Assembly: GCA_026706485.1 (NCBI GenBank)
Contig: JAPOYR010000011.1
Coordinates: forward strand, 62,001 to 126,000
DNA: 64,000 nt
Direction: 5' to 3'
Origin: Chloroflexota bacterium
Lineage (GTDB): Bacteria; Chloroflexota; UBA11872
The notes under the pieces are model-generated. The model worked only from the letters and a program-made list of their open reading frames with translations. It did no database searches and was not told the DNA's origin. Shown one piece after another: positions 29,848 to 36,586 of this stretch. Position 1 is the stretch's first letter, and each line of letters starts with the position of its first letter. Made by a program: the position numbers and the translations under genes.

Positions 29848-31794
29848 ATGGTGCCGACAAAGGGGTCTGTCGCCGAAATTTCCAAGCCAGCAAGCGCCCG
29901 GGCGGCGCTTCGCTTGGTTGCCGTGGCAGCCGTCGCGGCGTTGCTCGCCATGGCGTTCGCGACGTTCGGCGCCGGACGAGTCTCGGCGGGCCAGCCGGAT
30001 TGCCAGTTCGTTCTTGGCTTCGAGGCGCTTCAGGCCGCGATTCCGGACGCCGTCGGCGACTGCCTGGAAAACGAGAATCACGATCCGAGCGACCGGATTA
30101 CGCGCCAGCAAACCACCGGCGGGACGCTGGTCTGGCACAAGGCCTCCAACTGGACCGGCTTCACCGACGGCTACCGCACGTGGGTAATCGGTCCGCGGGG
30201 TCTGCAGCAGCGGCTGAGCATCGAGCGGTTCGCGTGGGAGCCGGCGTCGATCGCCGTGGGGGCCGACCTCGAGGCAGACGCGCAGACGCTGGCGTATGTT
30301 TCCGCGGCCATCGCCAAATACGACGAGGACGGCCTGGCGGCCACCGTCGACTTCTACAACAGCGAGGCGAGCATCGAGGACGGCCGCTCCCTGCTCATGG
30401 TCGACCGATCTAGCTTGACCGTCTTGGTCGCGCCAATCTTCGGCAACCTGGTTGGGGCGACGCTGCCACCCGCTCACTCGCTGACGCGGCTGGTCCGCGG
30501 CGTGGCCGATAGCGGGTGGATCAACCACTTGCAGACGAATCCCGCGACCGGCCAGCGAGATTCAAAGCGCAGCTACTTCGCGCTCCACGACGGCGTCGTC
30601 TTTGGATCTGGACACTTCTCGGTCCGGGCGAACCTCGCGGGAATCATTCGCGAGTACGTGAGCAACGCCATCGGGCACTACCGGACGGAAGGCCTGGACG
30701 CGACCATCGACTTCTACAACAGCCGCGAGAGCGTTGACGGCGAGCTGTACCTGTTCCTGATGGATGCCGACGACATCTATCTCGCCCATCCGATCTTTCC
30801 CCGCCTGATCGGCACGGACGTGAAGGACGTCGTGGGATCCAACGGCTACGAGCTCGGTATCGAGATTGCCAAGGCAACCGCCGAAGGGCACTGGGTCGAG
30901 TACTTGTGGCCCAACCCGGTGACGGGTCGGGAGGAGCCGAAGACCACCTGGGTCGTGCGGCACGAGGGTCTGATCTTCGCCTCCGGCTACTACACGCCGG
31001 ATCCCATGGCAGAGCCACCGGCTTGGCTCAACGCGGATCCGCGCGAATACACCGTCGAGTACGTGCAGCAGGCCATCGAGCGCTACGAGCGCGACGGCCT
31101 GGAGTCGATGACGAACTTCTACAACAGCACGGCGGCCTTCGAAGGGCAGTTCTACCTGTTCGCGATGGATGCGAACGATATCTACTTCATCCATCCGCTC
31201 TTCCCGCGCCTGATCGGCACTGACATCAAGGACGTGGTCGGGTCCGACGGCTTCGAGCTGGGCAAGGCGATCGCGGAGGCAACGGAGGAAGGCATCTGGG
31301 TCGAGTACCTGTGGCCTCACCCGGTGACGCTGCAGGAAGCCCCCAAGGTCACCTTCGCCATCCGACACGACGGACGGATCTTTGCCTCGGGTTACTACCC
31401 CGCGGCCGACGATCCGGAGGCGCACACGATGGCCTACGTGCAGGCGGCGATCGACCGCTACGAGGCCGACGGCCTGGAGGCGACCGTTGCCTACTACAAC
31501 AGCTCAGAGAGCTTTGACGGCGCGTCGTTCCTGTTCCTGGTCGACGAGAACGACCTCTACCTGGTGCACCCGTTGCTGCCGCAGCGGATCGGCACGGACG
31601 TGAAGCTGGTGAGGGCGCGCGGGCTCGACGGCGCGGTCTTCAACTACGGCGAACAGATCGCCGGCGTGACCGAGGAGGGACGTTGGTTCCACATCTTGCG
31701 TCCGTCGGCCCAGGGCACGGGCAGCGTGGCGCACGCGTGGGTGATTCGACACGATGGGCTGATCTTCGGGTCGGCGTACTTCGACGATGAGTAG
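29848..31794 (+). CDS. Secreted protein with four tandem Cache-like domains
   Basis: The 648-residue protein begins with a signal peptide (residues 20-47, AALRLVAVAAVAALLAMAFA). The start at 29848 has GGAGGGGA upstream. After an N-terminal domain with WHKASNWTGFTDGYRTWVIG (about residues 95-120) come four repeats of 105-120 residues, at about 148-262, 267-386, 404-520 and 528-648. Each contains a helix like YVQQAIERYERDGLE, FYNS, a strand like LFAMDANDIYFIHPLFP, IGTDIKDVV and IRHDGLIFASGYY. This is the single-Cache ligand-sensing fold normally found outside receptor membranes. No transmembrane output domain follows, so it may bind small molecules as a free or surface protein. A 12-bp stem follows it. 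Confidence 0.8.
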   Translation: MVPTKGSVAEISKPASARAALRLVAVAAVAALLAMAFATFGAGRVSAGQPDCQFVLGFEALQAAIPDAVGDCLENENHDPSDRITRQQTTGGTLVWHKASNWTGFTDGYRTWVIGPRGLQQRLSIERFAWEPASIAVGADLEADAQTLAYVSAAIAKYDEDGLAATVDFYNSEASIEDGRSLLMVDRSSLTVLVAPIFGNLVGATLPPAHSLTRLVRGVADSGWINHLQTNPATGQRDSKRSYFALHDGVVFGSGHFSVRANLAGIIREYVSNAIGHYRTEGLDATIDFYNSRESVDGELYLFLMDADDIYLAHPIFPRLIGTDVKDVVGSNGYELGIEIAKATAEGHWVEYLWPNPVTGREEPKTTWVVRHEGLIFASGYYTPDPMAEPPAWLNADPREYTVEYVQQAIERYERDGLESMTNFYNSTAAFEGQFYLFAMDANDIYFIHPLFPRLIGTDIKDVVGSDGFELGKAIAEATEEGIWVEYLWPHPVTLQEAPKVTFAIRHDGRIFASGYYPAADDPEAHTMAYVQAAIDRYEADGLEATVAYYNSSESFDGASFLFLVDENDLYLVHPLLPQRIGTDVKLVRARGLDGAVFNYGEQIAGVTEEGRWFHILRPSAQGTGSVAHAWVIRHDGLIFGSAYFDDE

Positions 31795-31991: not shown

Positions 31992-33704
31992 CTACTGCTC
32001 CACGCGGCAAGTGATCACGTCGACGCCATGGTATTTGCGATGGTGGACCGACGACGCGAAGTGCCGCAGGAGCCTTGTCGACAGTTGCTGCGCGTCGTCA
32101 AATCCGGCGTGGTCGCTCACCAGAGCTAGTTGATCTTCGATATTGCCGTCGCTGTCTTCACGCGAGTAGACCACCAGCTCAACCTCGGCGGCGTCGCCGT
32201 CCGCGTGCACCGAGGCCACCAGCCGGCGCCGGTGGTCGACCTCACCGTCGCCGCCCTGCTCCAATAGCGTGAGCACCGCTTCCTCGACCGCCAGGTTGAG
32301 GCGCGTCGTTGCTGAATCGCTCCATTTGTTCTGTGACGCAAAGCGATTCAAGAACGCGCCGATATCCGGCAAGGCCGCGTGGGACAAGTCCGCATGCAGC
32401 TTGCGTGGCCAGAGCCCGCGAAACTCCGTGACCGCGGTCATCACGATCGCGGTCACCGCGCCGAGGATCACCGTGTTCCCGACCAGCTCACTCCAAATGC
32501 CCTCACTCAACTGGCCGATGCTTCCCGCCGAGAGGCCGAGCACCAGCGATACGCCCGTGATGACAGACTTCCTATTGTTCAAAGGACCGGAAAACACCCA
32601 CTTCGCACCCTCAATGAAGAGCAGCCCGAAGACCATGATGTAGACGGCGCTCACGACTGAGTTCGGCGTTGCGGCAAGAGCGGCAATAATCTTTCCGAAC
32701 GGTGCGATCAATAGCGTGAGCAACCCAAGGTAGATTCCGACGGTCCTGGCGGCGATGCCGGTGAATCCGATGTACACGGCGGTGGATGACCAGGGTGCGG
32801 ATACAGGCAAGGTGGCCAGAAGGCCCGTGAGCAGCGTCGTGCCCCCATACACGTTCAAACCGCTTTGGATCGTCCTGAAGTCCAGCGCACGCGGCTCGCG
32901 AAATGAAGCCCGCTTGATGACCGAAAGATCGCCGACGACCTTGAGGAACGCCGTGAGCTTTACGATCAAGAACGCCGGCAACATTGACCAGAACCGCACT
33001 CCGAAGTCGAACTCCCACTGCGGCCACTCAAGATCGCCAAAGCTCAGCCAGGAAGCCTCCTCCACCGGCCCACCGTCATACAGTCCCATGGGGATGGCCA
33101 CGGCCAACCCCGCAGCGACAGCGATTGGCAGCGTCCACACACGGCGCGCGGCCGAAGCTTGCACCGCGCCCCACAGTCCGGCGCCGAGCGCGACAACACC
33201 AGGAATGACGACGAGCGCCGATTGATCGTGGGATTGCGCGATCGTCCGGTCCACGATGAATGGAACGGCGGATACGGCCACGAGCATGATGATGATTCCG
33301 CTGACCGTAGGCGTGAATATTCGCCGCAGCGACGAGAGGCGCGAGACAAGGACGAACTGCAAGAGCGTCGACGCGATGACCAGGGTTGCCAGCAGGCCCG
33401 GACCGCCTTCGGCAAGCGCCAACACCGACATCGCCAGCAGCGGCACATTCAGGTTCGTGACGACCAGTCCCCCCGAGCCCAAATGGCGAAACGGGAAGGC
33501 GTGCAGAATCATGCTCAAGCCGGAGATTGCCAGCCCGGTAAAGGTGACCCAGGCGAGGTAGCTATCCGATTCGCCGGACGCTCGGACGACGAACGTGGTG
33601 AGCAGAATGATGCTTATCGTATTCGGAATGAAGATAAGTAGAGCCGCGCCAATCGCCTGCCGCAAGGGGGGCTTATCCGCCGGCTCGTAACGCATATTGT
33701 TCAC
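31992..33704 (-). CDS. NCS2-type permease fused to a C-terminal RsbW-like ATPase domain
   Basis: The 570-residue protein has about 12 hydrophobic segments in residues 15-430. SGLNVYGGTTLLTGLLATLP and GFTGIAARTVGIYLGLLTLL match the NCS2 (xanthine/uracil) permease family, though the family's conserved asparagine-rich substrate motif reads APWSSTAVYIGF. Residues ~440-570 form a soluble GHKL-type ATPase domain of the RsbW/HATPase_c_2 kind: IGAFLNRFASQNKW, RLNLAVEEAVLTLLEQ, and ALVSDHAGFDD. The N-box Asn, normally after EEA, is missing. A permease with an anti-sigma-kinase-like domain suggests transport-linked sensing, but the ATPase may have degenerated. It converges on the Cache protein gene. 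Confidence 0.75.
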   Translation of the reverse strand: MNNMRYEPADKPPLRQAIGAALLIFIPNTISIILLTTFVVRASGESDSYLAWVTFTGLAISGLSMILHAFPFRHLGSGGLVVTNLNVPLLAMSVLALAEGGPGLLATLVIASTLLQFVLVSRLSSLRRIFTPTVSGIIIMLVAVSAVPFIVDRTIAQSHDQSALVVIPGVVALGAGLWGAVQASAARRVWTLPIAVAAGLAVAIPMGLYDGGPVEEASWLSFGDLEWPQWEFDFGVRFWSMLPAFLIVKLTAFLKVVGDLSVIKRASFREPRALDFRTIQSGLNVYGGTTLLTGLLATLPVSAPWSSTAVYIGFTGIAARTVGIYLGLLTLLIAPFGKIIAALAATPNSVVSAVYIMVFGLLFIEGAKWVFSGPLNNRKSVITGVSLVLGLSAGSIGQLSEGIWSELVGNTVILGAVTAIVMTAVTEFRGLWPRKLHADLSHAALPDIGAFLNRFASQNKWSDSATTRLNLAVEEAVLTLLEQGGDGEVDHRRRLVASVHADGDAAEVELVVYSREDSDGNIEDQLALVSDHAGFDDAQQLSTRLLRHFASSVHHRKYHGVDVITCRVEQ

Positions 33705-35455: not shown

Positions 35456-36586
35456 ATGCGCTTCAAAGAACTGACGACGAAAATGATCCCGGCTGGCGCG
35501 ATCTTGGTCGTCCTGCTCGGCGCGGTCGTTCTGATCGGCTGCGGCGCCACCGGCGCCGTCAACGGCTTGGCGACCGGCAGCGCAGCGGCAGGTCTTGGCG
35601 CCGGACCGTCAGGCGGCGAAGCCGCCGGCGAGCGTCGCGCCGGAGGGGAGCAGGGTGGCGGCGGAGCCAAGGGCGGCCCGTCACCCGGTGAAGGTGGTGC
35701 GGAAGGCGCCGGAGGCGAGGGACACGGTCCCGGCGGCGAGGTCGGCGCCGGCAATGAAGCGGCCATGGAAGCCGCGATGTCGAGCCCGATTACCCCGCTC
35801 AATCAGCCGTGGACCGGCGTGCTCGGCGGGCTGGAGGTTTCCGCCCGGTACGACGCGGCGACTCAATCGGTCCAGGCCACGGTGCAGAACACGCTGTCGC
35901 AGGTCCTCTGCTACGTGCAGTCGGAACCGCACCTGAAGCGCGGGACGACAACGGTGGGCGAGCTTGGTCCCGACGTGCTCGGGCATCTGAGCCCCGGTCA
36001 GCAGGCAACGTCCAGCGTGTCGGTGGCCAGCGAGCCGAGCCTCGCGGGAGTCGCATTCGACGGCTACGTCGTTCACCTCGAAGTGTTCGATTGCGGCGGG
36101 GCCGGCCCTGTGCCCCACACCGGAGGCGGCGGCGGTGAAGGCGCCGGCGGTGAGGGACACGGTCCCGGCGGCGAGGGTGGTGACGAAGGCGGCGGTGGCG
36201 AAGAAGGCAGCGGGGCCAATACCCTGCCGCCGGACCAGACCTTCGACCAGGTTCGCGGCGGCGCCCGGCTGATCCTGAACTACGACCCGGCAAGCAATGC
36301 CTTCCGGGGCACGATCGAGAATACGACCAACAGCGTGTTGACCCGAGTGAGGATCGAAGTGCACCTGTCCAACGGCACGGAGCTGGGTCCGACGACCCCG
36401 ATCGACCTGGCGCCGGGCCAGGCGGCATCGGTCAACCTGCCGTCAACGCCGGAGTCGTTCACCGGCTGGGTCGCGCACGCCGAGGTTGGCAGCGGCGAAG
36501 GCGGCCATACGGGCGGCGAGCACGATGGCCGCGGTGGATCCGGCGGCGAGCACGGCTCCCGTGGCGAAGGGGGCAGAGGCGGCTAG
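35456..36586 (+). CDS. Gly/Glu/His-rich lipoprotein with two related beta domains
   Basis: The 376-residue protein has a signal sequence with lipobox LIGCG (Cys29). Three low-complexity Gly/Glu/His-rich segments alternate with two similar domains. Domain 1 (about 113-220) contains VSARYDAATQSVQATVQNTL and domain 2 (about 262-345) contains LNYDPASNAFRGTIENTTNS. Both continue with a LGP...LxPGQ...W/Y-V-H-x-E pattern that resembles FxLYD-type beta folds. GAGGEGHGPGGE occurs in segments 1 and 2 with nearly identical DNA (35707-35742 and 36144-36179), a recent duplication. His/Glu content suggests metal binding. It is followed by an OmpR-type regulator and kinase, which may control or sense it. 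No known family assigned. Confidence 0.7.
   Translation: MRFKELTTKMIPAGAILVVLLGAVVLIGCGATGAVNGLATGSAAAGLGAGPSGGEAAGERRAGGEQGGGGAKGGPSPGEGGAEGAGGEGHGPGGEVGAGNEAAMEAAMSSPITPLNQPWTGVLGGLEVSARYDAATQSVQATVQNTLSQVLCYVQSEPHLKRGTTTVGELGPDVLGHLSPGQQATSSVSVASEPSLAGVAFDGYVVHLEVFDCGGAGPVPHTGGGGGEGAGGEGHGPGGEGGDEGGGGEEGSGANTLPPDQTFDQVRGGARLILNYDPASNAFRGTIENTTNSVLTRVRIEVHLSNGTELGPTTPIDLAPGQAASVNLPSTPESFTGWVAHAEVGSGEGGHTGGEHDGRGGSGGEHGSRGEGGRGG

Follow-up and report, generated by a model that had tools for sequence, protein, structure and literature searches.

A degenerate RsbW-like domain fused to an NCS2/SLC23-type permease in Chloroflexota

Introduction

Carriers of the NCS2/NAT family (SLC23; UapA, UraA, XanP and SVCT1) have a 7+7 membrane fold and are matched by the profile PF00860. 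They have been described as devoid of a C-terminal domain, unlike SLC26/SulP carriers, in which a short linker joins a cytoplasmic STAS domain to the final helix and keeps it close to the membrane (PMC6497670). A transporter and a GHKL-type domain within one chain are known from the SLC5-STAC histidine kinases CbrA and CrbS (PMC13022988, PMC7096432). The present analysis concerns a gene located in a 64,000-nucleotide stretch of a Chloroflexota genome (assembly GCA_026706485.1, contig JAPOYR010000011.1, positions 62,001 to 126,000; hereafter the window), which encodes an NCS2-type permease continued by a domain assigned here to the fold of the anti-sigma kinases RsbW, SpoIIAB and UsfX (HATPase_c_2).

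Compared with these systems, the permease part is NCS2-like in its fold and its PF00860 match, with UapA, SVCT1 and UraA as best PDB matches, but lacks both the NAT substrate motif and the glutamate of the eighth transmembrane segment (TM8). The C-terminal domain shares the Bergerat fold, as predicted, and common descent with the anti-sigma kinases, whereas it has lost their ATP boxes, is fused to a transporter and has no free-standing STAS protein alongside. The locus resembles SLC26/SulP carriers in membrane fold class and in the placement of a regulatory-type domain; however, the fused domain has the fold of the usual partner of STAS (RsbW type) rather than of STAS itself, and the transporter belongs to another family, the likeness being one of analogy and not of membership. 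Likewise, CbrA and CrbS combine SLC5 with a histidine kinase, whereas here an SLC23 protein (PF00860) is joined to a domain without HisKA and without ATP boxes. A literature search found no description of an NCS2 permease paired with an RsbW-like domain in the papers that it covered, and the architecture points to an integral regulatory handle, apparently the first of its type in the SLC23 family.

Architecture of the fusion gene

The open reading frame, which an earlier note made from the letters alone had delimited exactly without naming its strand, lies on the minus strand and has a 100% match in the source genome (G000:C11:93995-95704). In the 570-residue chain the permease is followed by a linker of some four residues and then by a 137-residue domain of the RsbW/SpoIIAB type. 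The full-length model (predicted local distance difference test [pLDDT] 77, predicted template modelling score 0.70) places the end of the last membrane helix at residue 430 and the beginning of the first strand of the C-terminal domain at residue 435; given that the linker region is free of indels and fixed in length among 29 aligned sequences, the domain is kept close to the membrane.

The Xan_ur_permease profile (PF00860) matched residues 29-392 (E 3e-21, 75.9 bits against a cut-off of 27), and the NCBIfam models pbuX and ncs2 matched well under their cut-offs, marking the window permease as a divergent NCS2 protein. The best PDB match of the permease model was UapA (5i6c; E 1e-13, TM-score 0.62/0.75), followed by SVCT1, UraA and SLC26 carriers, and the 7+7 fold of UapA and UraA was recovered in the model. 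The weak C-terminal Pfam match described below might raise the suspicion that chance read-through or misassembly had joined two separate genes. This has practically no chance of being correct, since the same architecture occurs five times in the source genome and in 29 of 41 related genomes, where full-length open homologues rule out an assembly or frameshift artefact, and since purifying selection (dN/dS, the ratio of non-synonymous to synonymous substitution rates) and the grouping of all fusions in a single clade speak likewise against it.

Fold and descent of the C-terminal domain

The HATPase_c_2 profile (PF13581) matched the last 137 residues only weakly (E 3e-4, 21 bits, under the 27.4-bit cut-off), so that the GHKL assignment was not proved by sequence alone, and proof was supplied by three later tests. 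Firstly, an AlphaFold2 model of the domain built from 50 family members (pLDDT 79) has the order strand-helix-helix-strand-strand-helix-helix-strand-strand, and its 19 best PDB matches were all RsbW, SpoIIAB or UsfX/anti-sigmaF chains (best E 7e-7, TM-score 0.68/0.73). Secondly, profile-profile comparison (hhalign) against bona fide RsbW-type proteins from Chloroflexota gave 97.2% probability and E 4e-11 over 125 columns, from few effective sequences. Thirdly, deep relatives of the fusion from family f72 exceed the HATPase_c_2 cut-off (41 and 39 bits versus 27.4) and, having partly intact ATP boxes, connect the C-terminal domain to real RsbW. A sequence search of the PDB with the domain or its profile returned no meaningful match. 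Chance resemblance to GHKL proteins was ruled out by the structure search, the profile comparison and the intermediate forms, and the models indicate that the domain is RsbW-fold and of common descent with RsbW. The fusion proposed in the earlier note is thus borne out by the above-cut-off PF00860 match, the RsbW-type PDB matches and the profile comparison, and the structure prediction that it had called for gave a GHKL-like domain.

Loss of the ATP boxes under continued selection

The absence of the N-box asparagine, also pointed out in the earlier note, extends through the family: position 479 is Thr in the window protein and, among 50 members, T in 20, S in 14, I in 13, A in two and N in one, with E474 and E475 of the same box invariant. 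The sole member with the asparagine (EETLTN; L098:6526-6942, G034:C5) lacks the G1 and G2 boxes. In essentially all members of the main clade the N-box Asn is missing, and so are the Asp-x-Gly of G1 and the glycines of G2, a loss that the earlier note did not mention. The deep f72 forms have His in place of the N-box Asn, but their G1 keeps its Asp and their G2 its LGL, and with such partial boxes the decay looks stepwise.

Ten residues are invariant in 50 sequences (E474, E475, E509, N521, D524, S542, L546, V553, H555 and D562), and the dN/dS of the domain between close pairs is about 0.07-0.22 (mostly 0.07-0.17), around double the value for the permease. Both observations demonstrate that the degenerate GHKL domain is under continued purifying selection. 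The position of the invariant residues within the old ATP pocket was deduced by alignment with RsbW.

These data bear on the idea, raised in the earlier note, of a channel gated by a nucleotide-binding domain. A domain still binding ATP or ADP in a non-canonical way and thereby gating transport would be in line with the invariant N-box glutamates, the asparagine kept in L098 and the parts of G1 and G2 kept in the deep relatives. The loss of all three boxes in essentially the whole main clade, and of G1 and G2 even in L098, disfavours this reading and makes it quite improbable.

Distribution and phylogeny

A PF00860 search of the source genome returned five full-length fusions and no unfused NCS2 gene; the other four fusions are 31-39% identical to the window protein. 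In the 29 related genomes that possess the family it is represented by one to six copies each, and six families of Chloroflexota, a lineage of mostly uncultivated bacteria, contain the fusion. When 400 genomes of the phylum were searched with a profile of the C-terminal domain, strong matches were confined to a few families and lay in a long frame together with the permease; a handful of short frames, the majority of them at the ends of contigs, were the exceptions, and the domain was not found standing alone. A later search added the family f74, with four paralogues. The domain pair that the earlier note proposed to look for in other genomes is present, and a separate, unlinked gene for the domain did not appear in the 400 genomes. 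Elsewhere in the phylum unfused NCS2 genes are frequent, their open frames being mostly 440-520 amino acids long. Plasmid records yielded unfused NCS2 genes only, with matches stopping by residue 444. A scan of a bacterial genome collection with the single protein (short peptide patterns) detected only two near-identical Chloroflexota metagenome-assembled genomes (MAGs).

The maximum likelihood tree of the permease part, which also included NCS2 proteins without the fusion, taken from records of Chloroflexota, haloarchaea and proteobacteria, placed all 39 fusions in a single clade (support 99/94), demonstrating one ancient fusion event; some outgroup branches are long, and the root is fixed no further than the fusion clade. 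The deep form from family f72 is sister to the main fusion clade (100/98). Each of the four main subgroups is represented in the f74 genome, which indicates an old origin of the paralogues. The permease distances correlate closely with those of the C-terminal domain (r 0.94, a value uncorrected for phylogeny), and this speaks against domain swapping.

Substrate site

The NAT signature in TM10 is [QEP]-N-x-G-x4-T-[RKG]. Alignment with UapA, whose Glu356 and Q408-N-N-G stretch we take to be substrate positions, revealed that the TM8 glutamate is not kept in the window protein (Lys255) and that S307-T-A-V stands in the place of Q408-N-N-G. The motif Q-N-N-G-x4-T-R is absent, the corresponding residues being S307-T-A-V-x4-T315-G316, of which only T315 and the final position G316, both invariant in the family, fit the signature. 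Across 29 family members the TM8 position is K in 16, E in 10 and Q in three. The dissimilarity from xanthine and uracil carriers noticed earlier is confirmed by these replacements, which suggest that the substrate is probably neither xanthine nor uric acid and probably varies between fusion subgroups; xanthine or uracil is unlikely to be transported. As a guess, the TM8 lysine might accommodate a solute of acidic character. We infer that the SLC23-fold protein is an ordinary secondary-active elevator transporter.

Possible role of the fused domain

The reading that we favour, by a modest preference, is that of an ATP-independent, non-enzymatic RsbW-type domain placed under a transporter, which it would assemble or stabilise, or tune through a partner or ligand. 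According to this scheme, the domain would no longer use ATP or phosphorylate anything; held on a tight tether, and with a homodimeric protein-binding module as its ancestor, it would pack beneath the transporter, for which a dimeric state is likewise expected, and would stabilise the dimer and/or tune the elevator movement by binding a cytosolic partner or a small ligand, like the STAS domain of SLC26 carriers. In the window subgroup, the secreted Cache-type protein of the adjacent gene would probably also take part in handling the external ligand.

Several points weigh against this proposal. Position and ancestry alone suggest regulation, and a purely structural tail that regulates nothing would account for the data almost equally well. 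Among the invariant residues E474, E475, N521, D524, S542, H555 and D562 are several from the former ATP pocket, which may have become a ligand site of altered kind or even an unusual nucleotide site, and the model is of low confidence at residues 517-545. Furthermore, the Cache-type gene is mostly convergent with the permease gene and hence mostly not co-transcribed with it. If the domain were a structural appendage, serving only the stability of the transporter dimer or its folding and transmitting neither signal nor ligand, this would accord with the fixed short linker, the lost catalytic boxes and the conserved hydrophobic pattern, and RsbW relatives are dimers. The several invariant polar residues at former ATP-pocket motifs are seemingly beyond the needs of a scaffold, and we regard this alternative as rather unlikely.

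A bolder version, which we offer as speculation and do not expect to hold, would make the fusion a mirror image of the SLC26-STAS arrangement: the ATP-dead, RsbW-derived domain of an SLC23-fold transporter would dock cellular regulators, STAS proteins among them, or would hold a novel small ligand where the ATP pocket has been remodelled, and would so couple transport state to gene regulation without phosphorylation, forming a transceptor class of its own with about five paralogues per genome.

Whichever role applies, an SLC23-fold carrier gained, once and anciently, a domain of a fold that normally binds STAS, and the ATP chemistry of this domain was lost and its selection kept. The two related transporter folds offer a testable case of independent gain of cytosolic regulatory-type domains from both sides of one partner-switch system, and the fusion series provides intermediates of an enzyme fold becoming a non-catalytic module.

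Table 1. Positions of the fusion gene, its parts and the adjacent Cache-type gene in the window.
Feature	Position	Strand	Basis
Whole fusion gene, 570 aa	31992..33704	minus	GTG start 33704, stop 31994-31992
NCS2/SLC23 (UapA/UraA-fold) membrane permease, residues ~12-430	32415..33671	minus	PF00860 and model match to UapA
Lys255 at the UapA TM8 substrate Glu356 position	32940..32942	minus	alignment and column counts
TM10 substrate-motif region, residues 306-316, SSTAVYIGFTG	32757..32789	minus	alignment and column counts
Degenerate GHKL (RsbW-like) domain, residues 431-570, behind ~4-residue fixed-length linker	31995..32414	minus	alignment, model, profile comparison
Former N-box LAVEEAVLTLLEQ, residues 471-483	32256..32294	minus	column counts
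Former G1 region, invariant N521-x-x-D524 replacing RsbW D-x-G	32133..32144	minus	alignment with RsbW
Former G2 region, S542-x-x-L-L546 replacing GGLGL	32067..32081	minus	alignment with RsbW
Predicted secreted protein, ~4 Cache-like (sCache_2) repeats, 648 aa	29848..31794	plus	sCache_2 E 8e-21; adjacency

Genomic neighbourhood

The Cache-type gene is convergent (tail to tail) with the window fusion gene. A close orthologue of its product (at least 553 bits) was found in all 22 searched genomes having the window permease subgroup, whereas the six genomes with other fusions but without this subgroup contained only weaker relatives (at most 280 bits). Adjacency of the two genes was observed in families f1, f2, f4, f5 and f74, uncorrected for genome relatedness; they are convergent in most families and lie on the same strand in f4, with the Cache-type gene upstream, so that the adjacency outlived a rearrangement. 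The pattern makes the Cache-type protein a likely functional partner of the window permease subgroup. Its N-terminal part outside Cache (residues 15-135, window approximately 29890-30255) recurs at about 50-66% identity in many proteins of these genomes and is apparently a lineage-specific module of secreted proteins. An in-frame TGA was noticed in the Cache-type gene of G002, and an in-frame TAG after codon 374 in the orthologue of the fusion gene in a near-identical MAG (L001:8001-9710, G001:C26); both may reflect decay or assembly error.

In G000, G019, G029 and G233, the four genomes examined for STAS or anti-anti-sigma neighbours as the earlier note had proposed, no fusion has a free-standing STAS gene in its vicinity, and the nearest STAS belongs to a SulP carrier located 4 kb from one fusion in G029. 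The source genome has an ordinary RsbW/RsbU/STAS module, with one stand-alone STAS protein (G000:C13:835-1137), on a contig (C13) other than that of the fusion. These observations concern the view that the protein acts as a transceptor, its RsbW-derived domain binding a cytosolic regulator, such as a STAS protein, in step with transport and reporting the availability of the solute to gene expression without phosphorylation. The RsbW ancestry, the known relatives of the fold crystallised with STAS partners, the stand-alone STAS protein of the Rsb module, the sensor-like Cache-type neighbour and the precedent of the CbrA transceptor (PMC13022988) are all in its favour. Apart from an ECF sigma gene upstream of one paralogue in the source genome, no free-standing STAS or sigma gene accompanies the fusions in the four genomes. 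The report of flux to a regulatory partner proposed in the earlier note survives in this form as a doubtful alternative. The exception, an extracytoplasmic function (ECF) sigma gene accompanied by a gene for a von Willebrand A-domain protein (YfbK-like), is situated directly upstream of the paralogue on the same strand (L037:10214-12860, G000:C10), and this arrangement was not seen at the related loci compared.

Other subgroups of fused permeases have different neighbours. A DUF1330 gene stands beside one of them, on the same strand, at six of six loci (L038:9979-10266, L051, L052, L056, L096 and L097). At three loci of family f4, genus g8 (L049, L053 and L054), a gene of about 540 codons occurs within a few kb of one subgroup, and in G029 it encodes the SulP carrier with STAS. 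A putative operon of the fusion gene with its class-V aminotransferase and M19 dipeptidase neighbours was dropped, as these neighbours are kept only within the genus. Further along the window (35456-36586), adjoining a two-component system, lies the gene for a predicted secreted protein that is extremely rich in glycine and has no Pfam match.
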